A DNA stretch of 28,031 nt, from positions 1 to 28,031 of IMG/VR virus record IMGVR_UViG_3300013100_000469. One strand, given 5' to 3'. The stretch's first letter is position 1. Every line of letters starts with the position of its first letter. The notes under the pieces are model-generated. The model did not search any database and was not told where the DNA came from. It saw only the letters and a list, made by a program, of their open reading frames with translations. Below are positions 6,764 through 28,031 of the stretch, one piece after another. This DNA is from a virus. A program made the translations under genes and the position numbers.

Positions 6764-6963
6764 CACATCCCCACCGACGCTAACTCTTCACGCGTCGCGT
6801 CTGCGGGCGGCACATACTCGAAATGGCCCATGTTCAAGAACCAGCTCTGGGTTTTGCTATTGAACGCCATCCACTCGCGCGGCGGCACGTAACGGACCGA
6901 GCCAACGGCCCAATCCATGACGCGGCCATCAGGTAACCGGACTTGTCTGACGATGCCCTTCAT
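6763..6963 (-). CDS. Small conserved phage protein between terminase and portal
   Basis: This 66-residue protein starts with no gap after the terminase stop (TGA then ATG) and its stop overlaps the portal start. It contains YVPPREWMAF and FEYVPP, two short repeats of a YVPP motif, and is otherwise soluble and mixed in charge. No family is recognised. Its place in the packaging operon suggests a packaging or assembly accessory role, which is inference only. Confidence 0.65.
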   Translation of the reverse strand: MKGIVRQVRLPDGRVMDWAVGSVRYVPPREWMAFNSKTQSWFLNMGHFEYVPPADATREELASVGM

Positions 6964-16793: not shown

Positions 16794-16940
16794 TCAGGGG
16801 GCCTTTGGTGTTTGGGTGAAGCGACGAGCGACGCGACGGCGGCCTTCGAAGTGTTCAAGCGCACGAAGGCCAAGCCACCAGACGCCGAACATCACGCCGT
16901 AGCCGACCGCGAGATAGCCGAGGATGAACCAGATGCTCAT
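16794..16940 (-). CDS. Single-span membrane microprotein, 48 residues
   Basis: ATG 16940 overlaps the cro-like stop as ATGA, with AGAGG 6 bases upstream. The N-terminal half is a transmembrane helix (IWFILGYLAVGYGVMFGVWW) and the C-terminal half is basic (HFEGRRRVARRF). By the positive-inside rule the tail should face the cytoplasm. It sits between cro and a second membrane microprotein and should be made early in lytic growth. Confidence 0.65.
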   Translation of the reverse strand: MSIWFILGYLAVGYGVMFGVWWLGLRALEHFEGRRRVARRFTQTPKAP

Positions 16941-17137
16941 GCGGCGGCCTCTTGTGCCGCTGCCGCTGCCAACTCATCGAGCGAGGCAAGCCCGCTCTCG
17001 CTGATGCGCTTCCATTCGGTCGGAGGTATGCTTTTGCGCCGTTCCCAGAAGCGCACGCGATCCGGTGGCAGGCCCAATGTGCGCGCCACCTCCCGGTAGC
17101 CCCCCGCATCTTGAACAATTTGAAGATGGCTTCTCAT
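16937..17137 (-). CDS. Cro-like repressor
   Basis: This 66-residue protein is divergent from cI. It reads MRSHLQIVQDAGGYREVART, then LGLPPDRVRFWERRKSIPPTEWKRISE, the layout of small YdaS/Cro-type HTH proteins in which RVRFWERRKSIP is the recognition region. ATG 17137 is chosen; the GTG at 17161 lies within operator O1 and has no ribosome site. The -10 element ends only about 13 bases before the ATG, so the mRNA would have almost no leader. It probably competes with the CI-like protein at the TGTGC operators and drives two membrane microproteins. Confidence 0.72.
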   Translation of the reverse strand: MRSHLQIVQDAGGYREVARTLGLPPDRVRFWERRKSIPPTEWKRISESGLASLDELAAAAAQEAAA

Positions 17138-17147
17138 CGGCCGTGAG

Positions 17148-17162
17148 TGTGCATAACGCACA
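17148..17162. promoter_or_regulatory. Operator O1 (TGTGC-N5-GCACA), over the cro -10
   Basis: TGTGCATAACGCACA is a 15-bp site with perfect 5-bp arms. Read on the minus strand it is identical to the operator at 18998-19012 and covers the -10 of the cro promoter. Binding would block cro. Confidence 0.8.
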
Positions 17163-17174
17163 GCGCTCCGTCAA
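17150..17174 (-). promoter_or_regulatory. Leftward early (cro) promoter
   Basis: On the minus strand TTGACG (17174-17169), 11 bases, then GTTATGCA (17157-17150). This spacing resembles the Caulobacter housekeeping consensus TTGACG-N10-14-GCTA rather than the 17-bp E. coli spacing. Operator O2 ends 7 bp upstream of the TTGACG box and O1 covers the -10. Confidence 0.65.
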
Positions 17175-17181
17175 GTCAGAA

Positions 17182-17196
17182 TGTGCCCTACGCACA
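17182..17196. promoter_or_regulatory. Operator O2 (TGTGC-N5-GCACA)
   Basis: TGTGCCCTACGCACA has perfect arms, is centred 34 bp from O1 and 33 bp from O3, and lies upstream of the cro TTGACG box. As the middle of three sites spaced about three helical turns apart, it allows cooperative binding on one face. Confidence 0.8.
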
Positions 17197-17208
17197 GCGC
17201 CGCTGGGC

Positions 17209-17214
17209 CACAAT
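17209..17214 (+). promoter_or_regulatory. Candidate -10 of the cI promoter (leaderless start)
   Basis: CACAAT ends 6 bases before the A of the cI ATG at 17221, so transcription could start at the start codon itself, as for lambda cI. No good -35 is visible, which would fit a promoter that needs activation by repressor at O2. Confidence 0.35.
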
Positions 17215-17229
17215 TGTGCGATGGGCACA
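17215..17229. promoter_or_regulatory. Operator O3, overlapping the cI start codon
   Basis: TGTGCGATGGGCACA contains the cI ATG in its centre. A repressor bound here would shut off its own gene, a built-in negative feedback. Confidence 0.8.
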
Positions 17230-17808
17230 GTCCGCGACGAAAAGGGTTCAAAGGCGCAGGGCGAGCGGCTTCGGCACGCCCGCGAGCACTGGCGCATACC
17301 CAATGCGGCAGAGGCTGTCCGGCGCTTAAAGCTCCCGGTCAAGGAAACGACCTATCAGCACCACGAGAACGGTACGCGCGGGATCACGCGACAGGCGCGC
17401 ATGTATGCCGAAAAGTTTGGTGTCCCGGTCGAGTGGCTGCTGGACGGAAAGAATCCGCCCGACTGGGCTCGCGGTGAGATGGATCTCACGCCAGAGGAGT
17501 ATCGCGGCGGTGCGGACCACTTTCTCCGCGCATGGCGCTTGTTCCGGAACATGACCGTCATCGAGTTGGCCGAGCGGATTGGCTTTCCAGCGCACGTCGT
17601 GGACGACTGGGAGGCCGGAACCCTCGATGTGTCGGGTAAAATGCTCGCAAAGCTCGGCGCCGCCTTGGATACTACGGCAGGAAGCATCTTGGATGTTGAT
17701 CCCGCCGCTGTGCCCCCTGCCCTGTTGGAAATGTGGCGTGACCACACCCGACAACAGGGGCCGATGCGAAGGCGTATAGAGGCGGCGCGCACGGGCACGA
17801 ACGGGTGA
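17221..17808 (+). CDS. CI-like prophage repressor with two HTH domains
   Basis: The start is ATG 17221, since the longer frame upstream crosses the operators and the cro gene. The 195-residue protein has a first XRE-type HTH at about 13-77 (GERLRHAREHWRI, ETTYQHHENGTRGI, YAEKFGVPVEWLLDGK) and a second at about 101-160 (LRAWRLFRNMTVIELAERIG, VDDWEAGTLDV, MLAKLGAALDT). No LexA/CI-type peptidase domain with Ser-Lys dyad follows, so RecA-stimulated self-cleavage is not expected. Induction probably works through an antirepressor or another signal. Divergence from cro and the three operators support the role. It may bind as a multi-headed protein across adjacent sites. Confidence 0.8.
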   Translation: MGTVRDEKGSKAQGERLRHAREHWRIPNAAEAVRRLKLPVKETTYQHHENGTRGITRQARMYAEKFGVPVEWLLDGKNPPDWARGEMDLTPEEYRGGADHFLRAWRLFRNMTVIELAERIGFPAHVVDDWEAGTLDVSGKMLAKLGAALDTTAGSILDVDPAAVPPALLEMWRDHTRQQGPMRRRIEAARTGTNG

Positions 17809-17836
17809 CCATCCACTATCTTCCAAGAGGGGCATC

Positions 17837-18265
17837 ATGAGGCAAGCGGCTATCGCGACTTGTGCCGTGCTGTTAGCAACGCCGGCCGTCGCCCAGACCA
17901 CCAACACCAATTGCTATACGAGCTACGGGCAGACCTATTGCCGCAGCACGACACAACCCGACCCGTGGACAAGCGCGCCAGCGCCGTGGACCGCCTATAA
18001 CAACGCCTATCAGAACGGCTGGAACCAGAGCCAGCAGATGCTCGACTCCTTGAACCGCGCGCGGCAGCAACGGGCGATGGCCGAACAACAGCGTCAGGCG
18101 CAGGCGGCAGAGGCCGAACGCGCCGAGCGCGAACGGCAGGCCGGGGCAATGATCGCTGCGGGCAACTGTGAGGATGCGCGGAACTACGCGCTGAAGGCCG
18201 GCGACTTCGACCTGGCCCAGAAGGTTGACGCGGCCTGTAAGGCCCCCGCCCTTCCTGTTCAGTGA
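17837..18265 (+). CDS. Secreted/periplasmic protein, lysogenic-conversion candidate
   Basis: This 142-residue protein starts after GAGGGGCATC. It has a clear signal peptide (MRQAAIATCAVLLATPAVA, cleavage likely after residue 19). A Cys-containing stretch follows (NCYTSYGQTYCRSTT), then a Trp/Tyr-rich region. A Gln/Ala/Glu coiled coil spans about 75-105. A C-terminal helix pair has two more cysteines (GNCEDARNYALKAGDFDLAQKVDAAC). The four cysteines could form disulfides in the periplasm. It lies 28 bp after cI on the same strand, so it should be expressed in the lysogen, as morons are. Its function is unknown. Confidence 0.72.
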   Translation: MRQAAIATCAVLLATPAVAQTTNTNCYTSYGQTYCRSTTQPDPWTSAPAPWTAYNNAYQNGWNQSQQMLDSLNRARQQRAMAEQQRQAQAAEAERAERERQAGAMIAAGNCEDARNYALKAGDFDLAQKVDAACKAPALPVQ

Positions 18266-18271
18266 GGGTGG

Positions 18272-18469
18272 CTAGTGCAAGTCACCGTGGCGCTGGCGAA
18301 GCAGCAGGACTACCTCAGCCCTGTCGTCTGGCTCTAGCTTCTCGGGGTCGGCCACGTGTGTGGCCTGCCCCTCTTTGGTGGTGCAGATGTAATCGAGGTC
18401 TGGGCTACCCCGAGTTGGGTTTCTAAGCCCAAGGGCCCTCACGGCCGCCCAGAAGTCCTCGACAGTCAC
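18272..18469 (-). CDS. Small partner of the HicB-like gene
   Basis: This 65-residue protein starts at GTG, coupled to the HicB-like stop as GTGA. It reads MTVEDFWAAVRALGLRNPTR, GSPDLDYICTTKEGQATHV, then DPEKLEPDDRAEVVLLLRQRHG. The order helix, RGS, two strands, helix loosely resembles HicA toxins (about 60 residues), but the catalytic His of the GSHH motif is not there. It may be a diverged or inactive partner, or unrelated. It converges with the secreted gene. Confidence 0.5.
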   Translation of the reverse strand: MTVEDFWAAVRALGLRNPTRGSPDLDYICTTKEGQATHVADPEKLEPDDRAEVVLLLRQRHGDLH

Positions 18470-18726
18470 GCAGCATGAAGCTCCAGGATGCGCGGCTCGC
18501 CGAGCGAGAAGAAGCCCTCGTCATCGCCGTCCACCAGCTCGACTTCAACGTCGGCGTCGTATTGCGCCTTGATGAGCTGAGAGATCGCGGCCGGCAGCCG
18601 CTCCTCGATGTCCTCGATGGTCTTGCCGACCGTCATCAGCCCGGGAAGGTCATCGCTGACGGCGGCGATAAGGCCTGTCTTTCGGCTCCGCAGCAGGCCA
18701 ACGCGGATCGTGGTCGGATAGGACAT
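18466..18726 (-). CDS. HicB-like / DUF1902-type antitoxin-family protein
   Basis: This 86-residue protein has the HicB partial RNase H-like fold pattern: IRVGLLRSRKTGLIAAVSDDLPGLMTVGKTIEDIEERLPAAISQLI, where SDDLPGL followed by G-x-T-x-E-D is the family core. ATG 18726 has GAGGGG upstream. A well-formed promoter precedes it on the minus strand. HicB-type proteins are antitoxins in HicAB modules, and DUF1902 members are often solitary. No C-terminal HTH or ribbon-helix-helix domain is seen, so self-regulation is unclear. Confidence 0.65.
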   Translation of the reverse strand: MSYPTTIRVGLLRSRKTGLIAAVSDDLPGLMTVGKTIEDIEERLPAAISQLIKAQYDADVEVELVDGDDEGFFSLGEPRILELHAA

Positions 18727-18747
18727 GTCACCCCTCTAGGGTTGCAC

Positions 18748-18774
18748 CATTAAGCCACATATAAGGCATGTCAA
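18748..18774 (-). promoter_or_regulatory. Promoter of the HicB-like pair
   Basis: On the minus strand TTGACA (18774-18769), 13 bases, then GCTTAATG (18755-18748), again the Caulobacter-like spacing. No TGTGC operator overlaps it, so the pair should be expressed in the lysogen. Confidence 0.5.
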
Positions 18775-18963
18775 CGAGACGTTAATAAGTCCCGAACACG
18801 CCGCTCTTGTGGCTGGCTCCAATTGTAACACGTTCCGTAGCGGTATGTTGCGACTAATCGCGCAACTGCGGGTCGTGCGGATAACCGACATTATTTGTTA
18901 GCCATAAAAGTACGCGGGGGAATCACCCTTGGTTCGCGGTTTGGACGCGGCACGTGACAGAGT

Positions 18964-18978
18964 TGTGCATTATGCACA
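18964..18978. promoter_or_regulatory. Operator OR1 (TGTGC-N5-GCACA)
   Basis: TGTGCATTATGCACA, 7 bp upstream of the TTGACA box of the rightward promoter. Centred 34 bp from OR2, the same spacing as O1-O2. It contains TTATGCACA, a DnaA-box match. Confidence 0.8.
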
Positions 18979-18985
18979 TTTCTGA

Positions 18986-19010
18986 TTGACACCATGCTGT
19001 GCGTTATGCA
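18986..19010 (+). promoter_or_regulatory. Rightward early promoter
   Basis: TTGACA (18986-18991), 11 bases, then GTTATGCA (19003-19010). Box, spacer length and flanking operators copy the cro promoter to the base. The transcript would start near 19017 and meet the ribosome site GAGGAGGA before the ATG at 19042. Confidence 0.65.
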
Positions 19011-19012
19011 CA
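18998..19012. promoter_or_regulatory. Operator OR2 (TGTGC-N5-GCACA), over the rightward -10
   Basis: TGTGCGTTATGCACA is identical to O1 read on the other strand. It covers the -10 element, so the repressor would block the whole rightward early operon. Confidence 0.8.
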
Positions 19013-19041
19013 CTCCTCTCAACACCTGAGGAGGACGGCAG

Positions 19042-19263
19042 ATGGCCGACGCAACCGAAACCAAGCGCATTCCCGCCTTCAAGCTGCGCGTGGACTTGGG
19101 CGGCGGGTGGGTGACGGAGCGATTTAATGATCGCGCCGCGCTTATCAGCGCCCGCCGTGATTATGCGGGCGCCTGCACGTTGCGCGGGCTCCAGGCGCTG
19201 TCCCTGGTCGATGGCGAATGGCGCCGCATCCGCGAGGGCCTTCTCCTGAAGGCGGCTGCGTGA
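19042..19263 (+). CDS. First gene of the rightward early operon, hypothetical
   Basis: This 73-residue protein starts after GAGGAGGA. It reads KRIPAFKLRVDLGGGWVTERFNDRAALISARRDYAGACTL, then QALSLVDGEWRRIREGLLLKA, and looks like a small alpha/beta protein. Being first after the operator-controlled promoter it should be the earliest and most abundant product of this arm. Such positions often hold host-takeover or anti-defence proteins, but nothing in the sequence shows this. Confidence 0.65.
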   Translation: MADATETKRIPAFKLRVDLGGGWVTERFNDRAALISARRDYAGACTLRGLQALSLVDGEWRRIREGLLLKAAA

Positions 19264-21133: not shown

Positions 21134-21201
21134 TCCCCCGCCTCTACTTCCTAACAACCCTCGCCTTTTTCGCCTTTACCTTGATGGAGATACCGGGATG
21201 A
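21130..21201 (+). CDS. 23-residue hydrophobic microprotein
   Basis: ATG 21130 overlaps the previous stop and its TGA overlaps the start of the ERF gene, both as ATGA. The product begins MIPRLYFLTTLAFFAFTLM and ends EIPG, mostly one hydrophobic helix. Two exact coupling junctions argue for translation. It may serve mainly to couple the ERF gene to upstream translation. Confidence 0.5.
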   Translation: MIPRLYFLTTLAFFAFTLMEIPG

Positions 21202-21866
21202 ACGCCATAGTCAGTGAGCCCTCAACGATCCTGAACGGCGTCGAATTCATCGGCGACCCGAAGGTTCTGTTCCCCGCCTTCCTGAAGGCTCAGAAGGCCA
21301 TGGGCGACGTGCTCAAGACCGCCACCAATCCGGCGTTCAAGAGCAAGTATGCCGACCTGGCCGCCGTGGTGGAAGCGGTTCTTCCCGCCCTGCACAAGAA
21401 CGGCTTTGGCCTGATGCAGCCGCCGCACTCGGATGGCGGTCTGGTCGAGGTTGAGACGGTCCTGCTGCACGAAAGCGGTGGATTCATCCGCTCGGTGCTG
21501 GGCCTGCGCCCGTCCAAAAGTGACCCCCAGGGCGTCGGCTCGGCGATCACATACGCTCGCCGCTACGCCCTTCAGGGGCTCGCCGGGATCGCGCCCGAGG
21601 ATGACGACGGCAACGCCGCCTCCGGGCCGCGCCAGACCGCCCAGAAGCCCGCACAGCAATCCGAGCAACCCAAGGGGCCGCCGACGCTCAGCGAGCGCGC
21701 TGACCGGCTGGAGATCACGCTCAAGGAGGTCAAGACCCGCGCCGATCTGGACAAGGCTTTCAAGCTGGCTTCCGGCCTGCTGGCGGACCTTGACGCCAAA
21801 GACCCGGAGCGGCTGGCCGACATCGAAGGGCTTCGCGCGGCCCGCGAACTGGAGCTGACCCAATGA
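21198..21866 (+). CDS. erf: ERF-family single-strand annealing protein
   Basis: The start is ATG 21198. The 222-residue protein has the ERF pattern: FLKAQKAMGDVLKTATNPAF at 28-47, KSKYADLAAVVEAVLPALHKNGFGLMQ at 48-74, and VGSAITYARRYALQGLAGIAPEDDDGN at 113-139. A Gln/Pro-rich linker and a C-terminal helical domain follow. ERF (as in P22) anneals complementary single strands and circularises or repairs incoming phage DNA, working with the exonuclease encoded next. The coupling to that exonuclease (ATGA) fits a two-part recombination machine. Confidence 0.9.
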   Translation: MNAIVSEPSTILNGVEFIGDPKVLFPAFLKAQKAMGDVLKTATNPAFKSKYADLAAVVEAVLPALHKNGFGLMQPPHSDGGLVEVETVLLHESGGFIRSVLGLRPSKSDPQGVGSAITYARRYALQGLAGIAPEDDDGNAASGPRQTAQKPAQQSEQPKGPPTLSERADRLEITLKEVKTRADLDKAFKLASGLLADLDAKDPERLADIEGLRAARELELTQ

Positions 21867-22483
21867 TCCAGGGCTCCGAAGAATGGTTCGCGGCGCGCTG
21901 CGGCAAGGTCACCGCCTCCCGTGTCGCCGATGTGATCGCCAGGACCAAGACCGGCTACAGCGCCTCTCGCGCCAACTACGCCGCTGAACTCATCGCCGAA
22001 CGGCTGACCGGCTGCACGGCCCCCAGCTTCACCAACGCCGCCATGCAGCACGGGACACTGTGCGAGCCTGTCGCCCGGCAAGCATACCAGAACCGGCATG
22101 GGGTTCTGGTTACGGAGGTCGCATTCATCGACCATCCGGAGATCGCCATGACGGGCGCCAGTCCTGATGGGCTGGTCGGGAATGTGGGGCTGATCGAGAT
22201 CAAGTGCCCGAACACCGCGACGCACCTGGACACCCTCCTCGGCGAGCCCATCGCCCAGAAATACGTCACGCAGATGATGTGGCAAATGGCATGCACCGGC
22301 CGCGAGTGGTGCGACTTCGTCAGCTTCGACCCTCGCCTGCCGGAGAACATGCAGATGTTCGTCCAGCGGGTGCCGCGCGACCTCAGCCTGATCCTCGACC
22401 TTGAACAGCAAGTCTCCGACTTCCTCGCCGAGATCGACGCCAAGGTAGAGGCCCTGACCGCCAAGTTTGCGAAGGCGGCCTGA
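21863..22483 (+). CDS. YqaJ/lambda-type exonuclease
   Basis: This 206-residue protein has the YqaJ pattern: GSEEWFAARCGKVTASRVADV at the N-terminus, QHGTLCEPVARQAYQ (E68), MTGASPDGLVG (D102), and LIEIKCPN (E112, K114). MMWQMACTGREWCDFVSFDP follows. These are the metal-binding residues of the lambda-exonuclease-type PD-(D/E)xK fold. It resects one strand of double-stranded DNA to feed the ERF annealing protein. All key residues are present, so it should be active. Confidence 0.92.
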   Translation: MIQGSEEWFAARCGKVTASRVADVIARTKTGYSASRANYAAELIAERLTGCTAPSFTNAAMQHGTLCEPVARQAYQNRHGVLVTEVAFIDHPEIAMTGASPDGLVGNVGLIEIKCPNTATHLDTLLGEPIAQKYVTQMMWQMACTGREWCDFVSFDPRLPENMQMFVQRVPRDLSLILDLEQQVSDFLAEIDAKVEALTAKFAKAA

Positions 22484-26600: not shown

Positions 26601-26910
26601 AAGTGTCGCGCCGTCCCCTACCCAAGAACACCGGGGTCAGCGGCTAGACCAACTGCCGAACTGGCCCGCACTGATGGATTCGGACATGGCGGCCGCCTAC
26701 TGCTCGGTGTGCCCCGTCACCTTTCAGGCGCTTGCCGGCCGTTATGGCGTGGCGCCCGTGGACATGGGGGCCCGCGTCACCCGCTGGCGCAAGCGCGATC
26801 TCGACACCCTGGTTGACAGACTCCCCGCGCGGGGCGACCCAAAGGACACCGCGCCCGTTGTCGATCTCGCTCAAGCCGCCCTTGAGAAAGCCGAACGGCG
26901 CGCGCGATGA
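26593..26910 (+). CDS. Excisionase-like HTH protein
   Basis: This 105-residue protein lies directly before the integrase and is ATGA-coupled to it. The region WPALMDSDMAAAYCSVCPVTFQALAGRYGVAP, then GARVTRWRKRDLDTLVDRLP, has the form of an Xis/AlpA-type winged helix: helix, turn, recognition helix, and the wing with RWRKRDLD. Such proteins often bend attachment-site DNA with integrase, or set its direction. An AlpA-type activator of the integrase is an alternative. Confidence 0.65.
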   Translation: MSKSVAPSPTQEHRGQRLDQLPNWPALMDSDMAAAYCSVCPVTFQALAGRYGVAPVDMGARVTRWRKRDLDTLVDRLPARGDPKDTAPVVDLAQAALEKAERRAR

Positions 26911-28031
26911 GCGGGGACATCATGCGCAACGTCAACCGGGTGGTCGGCAAGGATGGGGTCGAACGGCTCTACTTCCGAAAGCGAGGCCAGCCCGCCGTGC
27001 GCCTGCAAAGCCCGTGGGGCTCGCCTGAGCTGACGCGGGAGGTCGAGGCCATCCTGTCCGCCGCCAAGCCCAGAGCGCTACCGGGGACGCTGCGCGGGGC
27101 CTTGCGGGAGTATGAGCTGCACAATCCCGACTTCACCGGCCTCGCGGCCTCCACGAAGTACGAATACCGCCTGATCCTGAAGGAGCTGGAGGAGGACTTC
27201 GGCTCGGTCCCCGTCGCCACTTTCGAGAGCGACTACATCTACAAGCTCAGGAACGCATGGGCCAAGCGCGGCCACCGCGCGGCGAACGTCCGCCTGCAAA
27301 TCCTCAAGAACGTGCTGAAGGCCTGCATCATCGCCCGTCAGATCGAAGGCGGTGACCCGTTCTCGCTGATCCCACAGGTCCGCAGGCCGCACGACGCCGC
27401 CGAGCCTCACCTGATCTGGCCTGAGAGCGTCGTCACCGCTGTGATCGAGGCGGCTGTAACGGAGAAGCGGTTTGGGCTGGCGCGCGGGGTCGCTATTGGC
27501 CGCTACGCCGGAGCGCGGCGCGGGGACATCGTGAAGCTGACGCAGGGCGCGCGCAGGAATGGGCGGTTCTGTTGGCTATCGGGCAAGCGCAAGGTGCCGG
27601 TCGATATGCCCGAGGACCCGGCCCTGAAGGCATGGTTGGACGGCACACCGAAGAACGGCCTGATCCTGGCCTACAACATGGACGGCCTGAAATACTCCGA
27701 GGACGGCTTTGCGCTGGAGCTGCGCAAACTCGTCACCCGGCTCTACAGGGCAGAGAAGATCGACAGTGCGGGATATGGGGTCCACGGCCTGCGCCACACC
27801 TTCGGCGTCGAAGGGGCCTTGGCCGGTTGGACGGATGCGCAGGGGGCGGCGATGCTGGGCCACGCGAGCCCGCATTCCTTCGCCACATACCGCCGTCAGG
27901 CCGACAGAATCAGGATGGCCGACGACGGGGCCGACAAGGTGGTCCGTCTGCGCGAACGGACCCCGAACGGCGATGTGCAAAATGGGGTGCAAAATAGTTG
28001 CAAAACCGATCCGGCTTCTGTGGCCGGGTAG
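26907..28031 (+). CDS. int: Tyrosine recombinase (phage integrase)
   Basis: This is a complete 374-residue integrase. The N-terminal part covers arm and core binding (residues 1-160, with a helix-rich SAM-like domain around 55-150). The catalytic half has the first Arg in YAGARRGDIV (R204), a Lys in SGKRKV (227-229), HGLRH (H293, R296), LGHAS (H319) and the nucleophile Tyr in ATYRRQ (Y328). All key residues are present. The end (GDVQNGVQNSCKT) is encoded by three repeats of TGCAAAA. The window ends on its stop codon, so the attachment site is expected just beyond. Confidence 0.95.
   Translation: MSGDIMRNVNRVVGKDGVERLYFRKRGQPAVRLQSPWGSPELTREVEAILSAAKPRALPGTLRGALREYELHNPDFTGLAASTKYEYRLILKELEEDFGSVPVATFESDYIYKLRNAWAKRGHRAANVRLQILKNVLKACIIARQIEGGDPFSLIPQVRRPHDAAEPHLIWPESVVTAVIEAAVTEKRFGLARGVAIGRYAGARRGDIVKLTQGARRNGRFCWLSGKRKVPVDMPEDPALKAWLDGTPKNGLILAYNMDGLKYSEDGFALELRKLVTRLYRAEKIDSAGYGVHGLRHTFGVEGALAGWTDAQGAAMLGHASPHSFATYRRQADRIRMADDGADKVVRLRERTPNGDVQNGVQNSCKTDPASVAG
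27976..28006 (+). repeat. Three TGCAAAA direct repeats at the integrase 3' end
   Basis: TGCAAAAT (27976-27983), TGCAAAAT (27988-27995) and TGCAAAAC (27999-28006) are spaced 12 and 11 bp, about one helical turn each. Their position next to the expected attP suggests integrase arm sites, but they also encode the protein end, so chance is possible. Confidence 0.5.

Follow-up and report, generated by a model that had tools for sequence, protein, structure and literature searches.

The window analysed here is the whole 28,031-bp record of an IMG/VR virus, and consists of two gene arms that run in opposite directions from a central immunity region. The leftward arm codes for a replication initiation protein, a primase, a Holliday junction resolvase, a terminase, a portal protein and a major head protein. 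The rightward arm includes the genes of an ERF annealing protein and a YqaJ exonuclease (21189–22483, plus strand; Pfam ERF, 2e-25, and YqaJ, 8e-30, with PHROG matches), and ends with an integrase (26907–28031, plus strand; PHROG integrase, 3e-21). The immunity region between the arms contains a cro-like gene on the minus strand, a cI-like gene and the gene of an exported-looking protein on the plus strand, and two small genes on the minus strand. The divergent arrangement of cI and cro, with replication on one arm and recombination and integration on the other, is that of a lambda-type bipartite immunity region. The cro-like gene (16937–17137, minus strand) encodes a protein of 66 aa with a YdaS/MerR/P22-Cro-like HTH, identified by weak Pfam matches (YdaS, 2.8e-04, and P22_Cro, 0.08, are both below the curated cut-offs, and MerR_1 passes its own); a homologue is present in locus L008.

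The cI-like gene (17221–17808, plus strand) encodes a repressor of 195 aa, assigned from Pfam matches, PHROG transcriptional repressor families and an alignment with two homologues, which share 48–49% identity with it. The protein has an N-terminal HTH of the XRE type (HTH_19, E-value 7.8e-06) and a second HTH (HTH_3/HTH_31). The latter occupies the place of the S24 peptidase of lambda CI and LexA-like proteins, which is absent according to Pfam, and resembles stand-alone XRE proteins encoded on Caulobacterales chromosomes. The AlphaFold model is confident for the N-terminal HTH only (mean pLDDT 72), and a Foldseek search of this model against the PDB gave nothing below 1e-3; no fold-based claim is, therefore, made for the C-terminal half.

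Five palindromes of the form TGTGC-N5-GCACA, all with perfect arms, start at positions 17148, 17182, 17215, 18964 and 18998, in agreement with the initial annotation. Exact matches to this motif had a mean of 0.08 and a maximum of 1 in 100 dinucleotide shuffles, none of which reached the five observed. The genome scan that had been suggested as a check revealed no further exact copy in the 28-kb record, and the sole site with a single mismatch (6800–6814) is located inside a small ORF distant from the immunity region. The left set is formed by O1 (17148–17162, minus strand), the inner operator of the leftward, or cro, promoter; by O2 (17182–17196), the outer operator of this promoter, which is kept in L055, L013 and L005; and by a third operator, O3 (17215–17229), with the sequence TGTGCG-ATG-GGCACA. 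O3 had been listed earlier with no interpretation, and the ATG of cI at 17221 falls inside it. The right set comprises the outer (18964–18978) and inner (18998–19012, plus strand) operators of the rightward promoter. Operator centres are 34 bp apart at both promoters, as had been stated, with distances of 34 and 33 bp in the left set and 34 bp in the right set. The inner operators have the same sequence when read in the direction of their promoters (TGTGCGTTATGCACA), and this identity runs three bases further (CTC) than previously reported. The presence of the same operator sequence in two sets on either side of the repressor gene, observed also in L013 and L055, is a further feature of lambda-type bipartite regions.

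Both lytic promoters share the order operator, 7 bp, TTGAC, operator, as originally described; the second gap, given as 6 bp, measures 7 bp unless the sixth base of the box is counted. The −35 box of the leftward promoter is TTGACG (17169–17174, minus strand), with TTGAC preceding the inner operator by exactly 7 bp, and that of the rightward promoter, taken from the aligned promoters, is TTGACA (18986–18991, plus strand). The window contains exactly two copies of the combination TTGAC-N7-TGTGCN5GCACA, one at each lytic promoter, compared with 0.0 per shuffled window when up to two mismatches are allowed. Among the 24 aligned promoters, 20 have TTGAC exactly 7 bp 5' of their inner operator.

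The −10 boxes are proposed to be CACACT at both promoters, with a spacer of 17 bp (17146–17151, minus strand, for the leftward promoter; 19009–19014, plus strand, for the rightward one). Most of the aligned promoters display a CACANT-type hexamer, or a similar one, 17 bp after TTGACN that consists of the right arm of the operator and two more bases; the right arm of O1 overlaps the proposed leftward −10. Another box, GTTATGCA, had been put forward as −10 at 11 bases from TTGAC. It begins 12 bases after TTGAC, and 11 is obtained when the count is made from the hexamer. Because a spacing of 11–12 bases would be needed, GTTATGCA is the less likely −10; CACACT, 17 bp after TTGAC, is more likely and fits the relatives and the leftward start codons better. 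A T at the sixth −10 position (17/24) was rejected as proof of a −10 box since T is frequent at the equivalent position after the outer operators as well (14/24), and by itself proves little. No sigma-70 match was found here by an E. coli-type promoter scan, because the −10 boxes are weak. The −10 of sigma-70 promoters is poorly conserved in Sinorhizobium meliloti (PMC3616915). The operators frame or overlap the TTGAC and the proposed −10 of the predicted early promoters, as in other lambda-type bipartite regions.

The rightward transcript is proposed to start at about 19021 and has an ordinary leader, with GAGGAG ahead of the ATG at 19042. In the cI-side promoters, an ATG is located 8–11 nt past the inner operator in all loci except L078. 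This puts the ATG at the predicted start or only a few bases away from it, which points to leaderless or near-leaderless mRNAs; such an mRNA is expected for cro, with its ATG 10 nt past the inner operator. In Caulobacter, many mRNAs are leaderless (PMC4117421).

The cI promoter was compared in four phages, namely the window, L055, L013 and L005, the last being a partial locus. An A/T-rich hexamer (CACAAT, CAAAAT, CATATT and CATAAT) abuts the third operator in all of them and is separated by 6 nt from the ATG of cI, which starts at the seventh base of this operator in 4/4 phages with a tandem-HTH CI. The hexamer of the window, CACAAT (17209–17214, plus strand), is the proposed −10, and the cI mRNA is predicted to be leaderless. 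The expected −35 region of cI lies in O2 and contains no TTGACA.

A search of viral contigs with the single CI protein of the window gave no match, and an alignment had to be used as query; known phages gave nothing beyond distant and partial matches. Tandem-HTH homologues are rare, the copy of Caulobacter S45 being the sole full-length one among 299 order-level and 385 class-level genomes. The 3+2 layout with 33/34-bp spacings recurs in L013, the prophage of Caulobacter sp. S45, and in the viral contig L055, with about 2.0 and 1.8 kb, respectively, between the operator sets. Conservation was further analysed in a motif-blind set that consisted of the window and 24 viral loci with CI relatives, retrieved by protein with no use of the motif. 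TGTGC-N5-GCACA ranks first in this set among 11,264 combinations of half-site and gap, with 28 exact sites in 12 loci. The runner-up is a sister palindrome, AATGC-N5-GCATT (20 sites in seven loci), that forms 3+2 sets in L058–L060. A motif search gave a corresponding result: a CI-like gene with the shared N-terminal HTH is present in 5/5 viral contigs that contain a pair at 34-bp spacing and in some of the genome matches. Seven of the eight sites in the 4.9 Mb of Caulobacter sp. S45 lie inside one 7.2-kb stretch that holds the immunity region, and the three sites in the 5.1 Mb of Rhizobium daejeonense are all in the cI region.

Several other features of these loci were observed. The sister operators of L058–L060 have a lambda-like spacing of 22–24 bp, and their −35 is partly formed by the end of the operator (GCATTGAC); the same palindrome was noted for L056, L057 and L061. 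Lone extra operators are located far from cI in L013 (7089–7103 and 7622–7636) and in L005 (1429–1443), with partly similar downstream sequences, the L005 copy having TTGAAA 7 bp upstream and being located in front of a terminase-like gene. They possibly mark an additional late promoter, the third to be controlled by CI in these relatives; no distant operator of this type is present in the window. Exact TGTGC-N5-GCACA pairs with a 35-bp spacing were encountered in many Bradyrhizobium genomes and also in Paenibacillus, Sporomusa and Victivallales (L012, L014–L017, L019, L020, L022 and L026–L030 among these loci). No CI-like gene lies near these pairs, which represent a different tandem palindrome and were excluded as unrelated.

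The full-length tandem-HTH phages also carry, between their operator sets, a gene whose product has a signal-peptide-like or lipoprotein-like start (17837–18265 in the window; 936–1670 in L013; downstream of cI in L055). The three proteins are dissimilar to each other by eye, and are candidates for superinfection exclusion or lysogenic conversion. The gene of the window lies 3' of cI on the plus strand, and a Pfam search with its product gave no match. The two small genes that follow (18272–18726, minus strand) are a DUF1902/HicB-like gene (18466–18726; Pfam DUF1902, 3.3e-05) and a 65-aa ORF with no family assignment (18272–18469) that overlaps it by a few bases; they possibly form a toxin–antitoxin pair.

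The best explanation for the five palindromes is that they are very probably operators to which the CI-type repressor encoded by the phage binds through its N-terminal HTH. The use of one operator design at the promoters of both lytic arms, proposed in the initial annotation, is corroborated by its conservation in relatives and its concentration in immunity regions, and the association of this HTH family with the motif argues strongly for CI as the binder. Three CI relatives (L063, L065 and L073) have neither operator set near cI, which counts against this explanation. At each lytic promoter, a CI dimer bound to the inner operator would cover the −10 and the spacer and thereby exclude RNA polymerase, and the outer operator, just upstream of the −35, would frame this box together with the inner one. 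With the inner operators of both promoters covered, the same repressor would silence cro and the replication, packaging and head genes on the leftward arm, together with ERF, the exonuclease and the integrase on the rightward one, in the manner of lambda CI at OR and OL.

With respect to the order of filling, we infer that O1 fills first and, in the simplest idea, suffices alone to hold the cro promoter. The filling of O2 and O3 should then shut cI, because O2 contains the −35 region of cI, and O3 contains both the start point and the start codon. Such negative autoregulation, like the −10 boxes and the leaderless mRNAs, is reasoned from the sequence. A repressor bound at O2, whose centre is at −32 relative to the start proposed for cI, would block this gene, so that the upkeep of cI in the lysogen is not accounted for; this counts against the preferred explanation.

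The main alternative is that CI and Cro share the sites and compete for them as in lambda, with Cro preferring O3 and CI preferring O1. Such competition is classical for lambdoid phages, and the cro-like gene of the window occupies the expected position, but we consider the sharing unlikely. The sites persist in L013 and L005, which have no recognisable Cro HTH, and in L006 and L007, in which Cro is an unrelated HTH_3 protein that is not YdaS-like; their presence follows the N-terminal HTH of CI. Because relatives with no recognisable Cro or with an unrelated one keep the sites, Cro is not needed to explain them, although it could still bind. The binding of Cro envisaged earlier is, in consequence, not supported.

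The region read as CI operators is most likely a lambda-type, two-ended immunity region. The operator sets of lambda flank cI–rex; those of the window likewise flank cI and accessory genes, with three operators adjoining cI, and one side drives cro and replication while the other drives recombination and integration. The region of the window is the mirror image of lambda's. The PRM mRNA of lambda is leaderless, and the coincidence of the cI start codon with the transcript start is also predicted here. By contrast, the operators of the window are 33–34 bp apart, compared with about 24 in lambda, with the −35 between them, and the distal set has two sites instead of three. The centre of O2 lies at about −32 relative to the proposed start of cI, whereas that of lambda OR2 lies at about −42, which makes a lambda-type activation of cI unlikely. 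The repressor differs as well, as CI of the window has a second HTH and no S24-type domain. The separation of the two sets by 1.8 kb had been presented as a departure from lambda; this was wrong, since the two operator sets of lambda are themselves separated by about 2.3 kb (PMC5880393).

A related proposal is that CI bound to both sets loops the DNA across 1.8 kb and so strengthens repression, as in lambda. Two sets with 3+2 sites, 0.7–2.0 kb apart across relatives, are compatible with it, and CI could oligomerise through the second HTH and a helix predicted at its C-terminus. However, looping in lambda depends on the C-terminal domain of CI, which is missing from the protein of the window. 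The spacing of the two sets varies by a factor of three, and no looping signature was seen. With nothing positive found, looping, which had been considered possible, is improbable and has a poorer standing than the sharing of sites with Cro.

Far less plausible is the recognition of the palindromes by a host regulator whose control the phage has borrowed. The likeness of the second HTH to chromosomal XRE proteins is in its favour, but these stand-alone proteins match the second HTH only and have no TGTGC sites nearby, and just one of the eight sites in Caulobacter S45 and none of the three in R. daejeonense lie outside the prophage. A repeat or hairpin element, acting as terminator or RNA structure, is the least credible reading: 18964–18978 followed by TTT scores terminator-like and the 35-bp-spaced copies in Bradyrhizobium loci lack a CI-like gene, but the offset of the sites to TTGAC and to the start codons is fixed at both promoters, and the sites come first among the palindromes of CI loci collected blind to the motif.

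Among other known systems, the S24-type CI phages of Alphaproteobacteria (L006, L007, L009, L069, L072, L075 and L077) are similar in their N-terminal HTH, in the TGTGC-N5-GCACA sites and, in most cases, in the geometry of the distal promoter. The DNA-reading HTH (TYxQHENGTRGI) is common to CI of the window and these relatives. They differ in that CI contains an S24 peptidase (L006 and L009, which were tested, match PF00717, and the rest probably have it too), in that a spacing of 47 bp separates the clear cI-side sites in most, and in that Cro belongs to another HTH family where tested. Wmk of phage WO of Wolbachia is described as a tandem-HTH XRE regulator (PMC6736233), and is similar in having two HTH domains in one phage protein. 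In the open papers searched, no system matching the motif or the two-HTH phage repressors is described.

The unusual part of the region is the repressor, in which the N-terminal HTH common to S24 CI proteins appears to be kept and the peptidase half to be swapped for a second HTH. From this domain content, neither SOS cleavage nor lambda-type looping is expected. Induction should not use RecA-stimulated cleavage in a CI devoid of the self-cleaving S24 domain, and more likely follows from the action of an antirepressor, from Cro competing with CI or from CI no longer being supplied. Tentatively, and with somewhat less than an even chance of being correct, a few alphaproteobacterial phages may have kept the operators and the DNA-reading domain of an SOS-inducible CI while exchanging its self-cleaving half for a host-XRE-like HTH. 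If true, this would be a lambda-type switch that is deaf to SOS, controlled by some other signal and autorepressed via an operator that holds its own start codon.

These results provide a clear operator code, TGTGC-N5-GCACA with its sister AATGC-N5-GCATT, and a promoter grammar for a family of temperate phages of Alphaproteobacteria. The rule that relates operators to promoters could serve for the sequence-based prediction of immunity groups and lytic promoters. In this family, one DNA-reading domain appears combined with either of two effector halves, on operator sets that resemble each other, and the two halves would allow a direct test of whether a lambda-type switch needs a self-cleaving, loop-forming domain at all.
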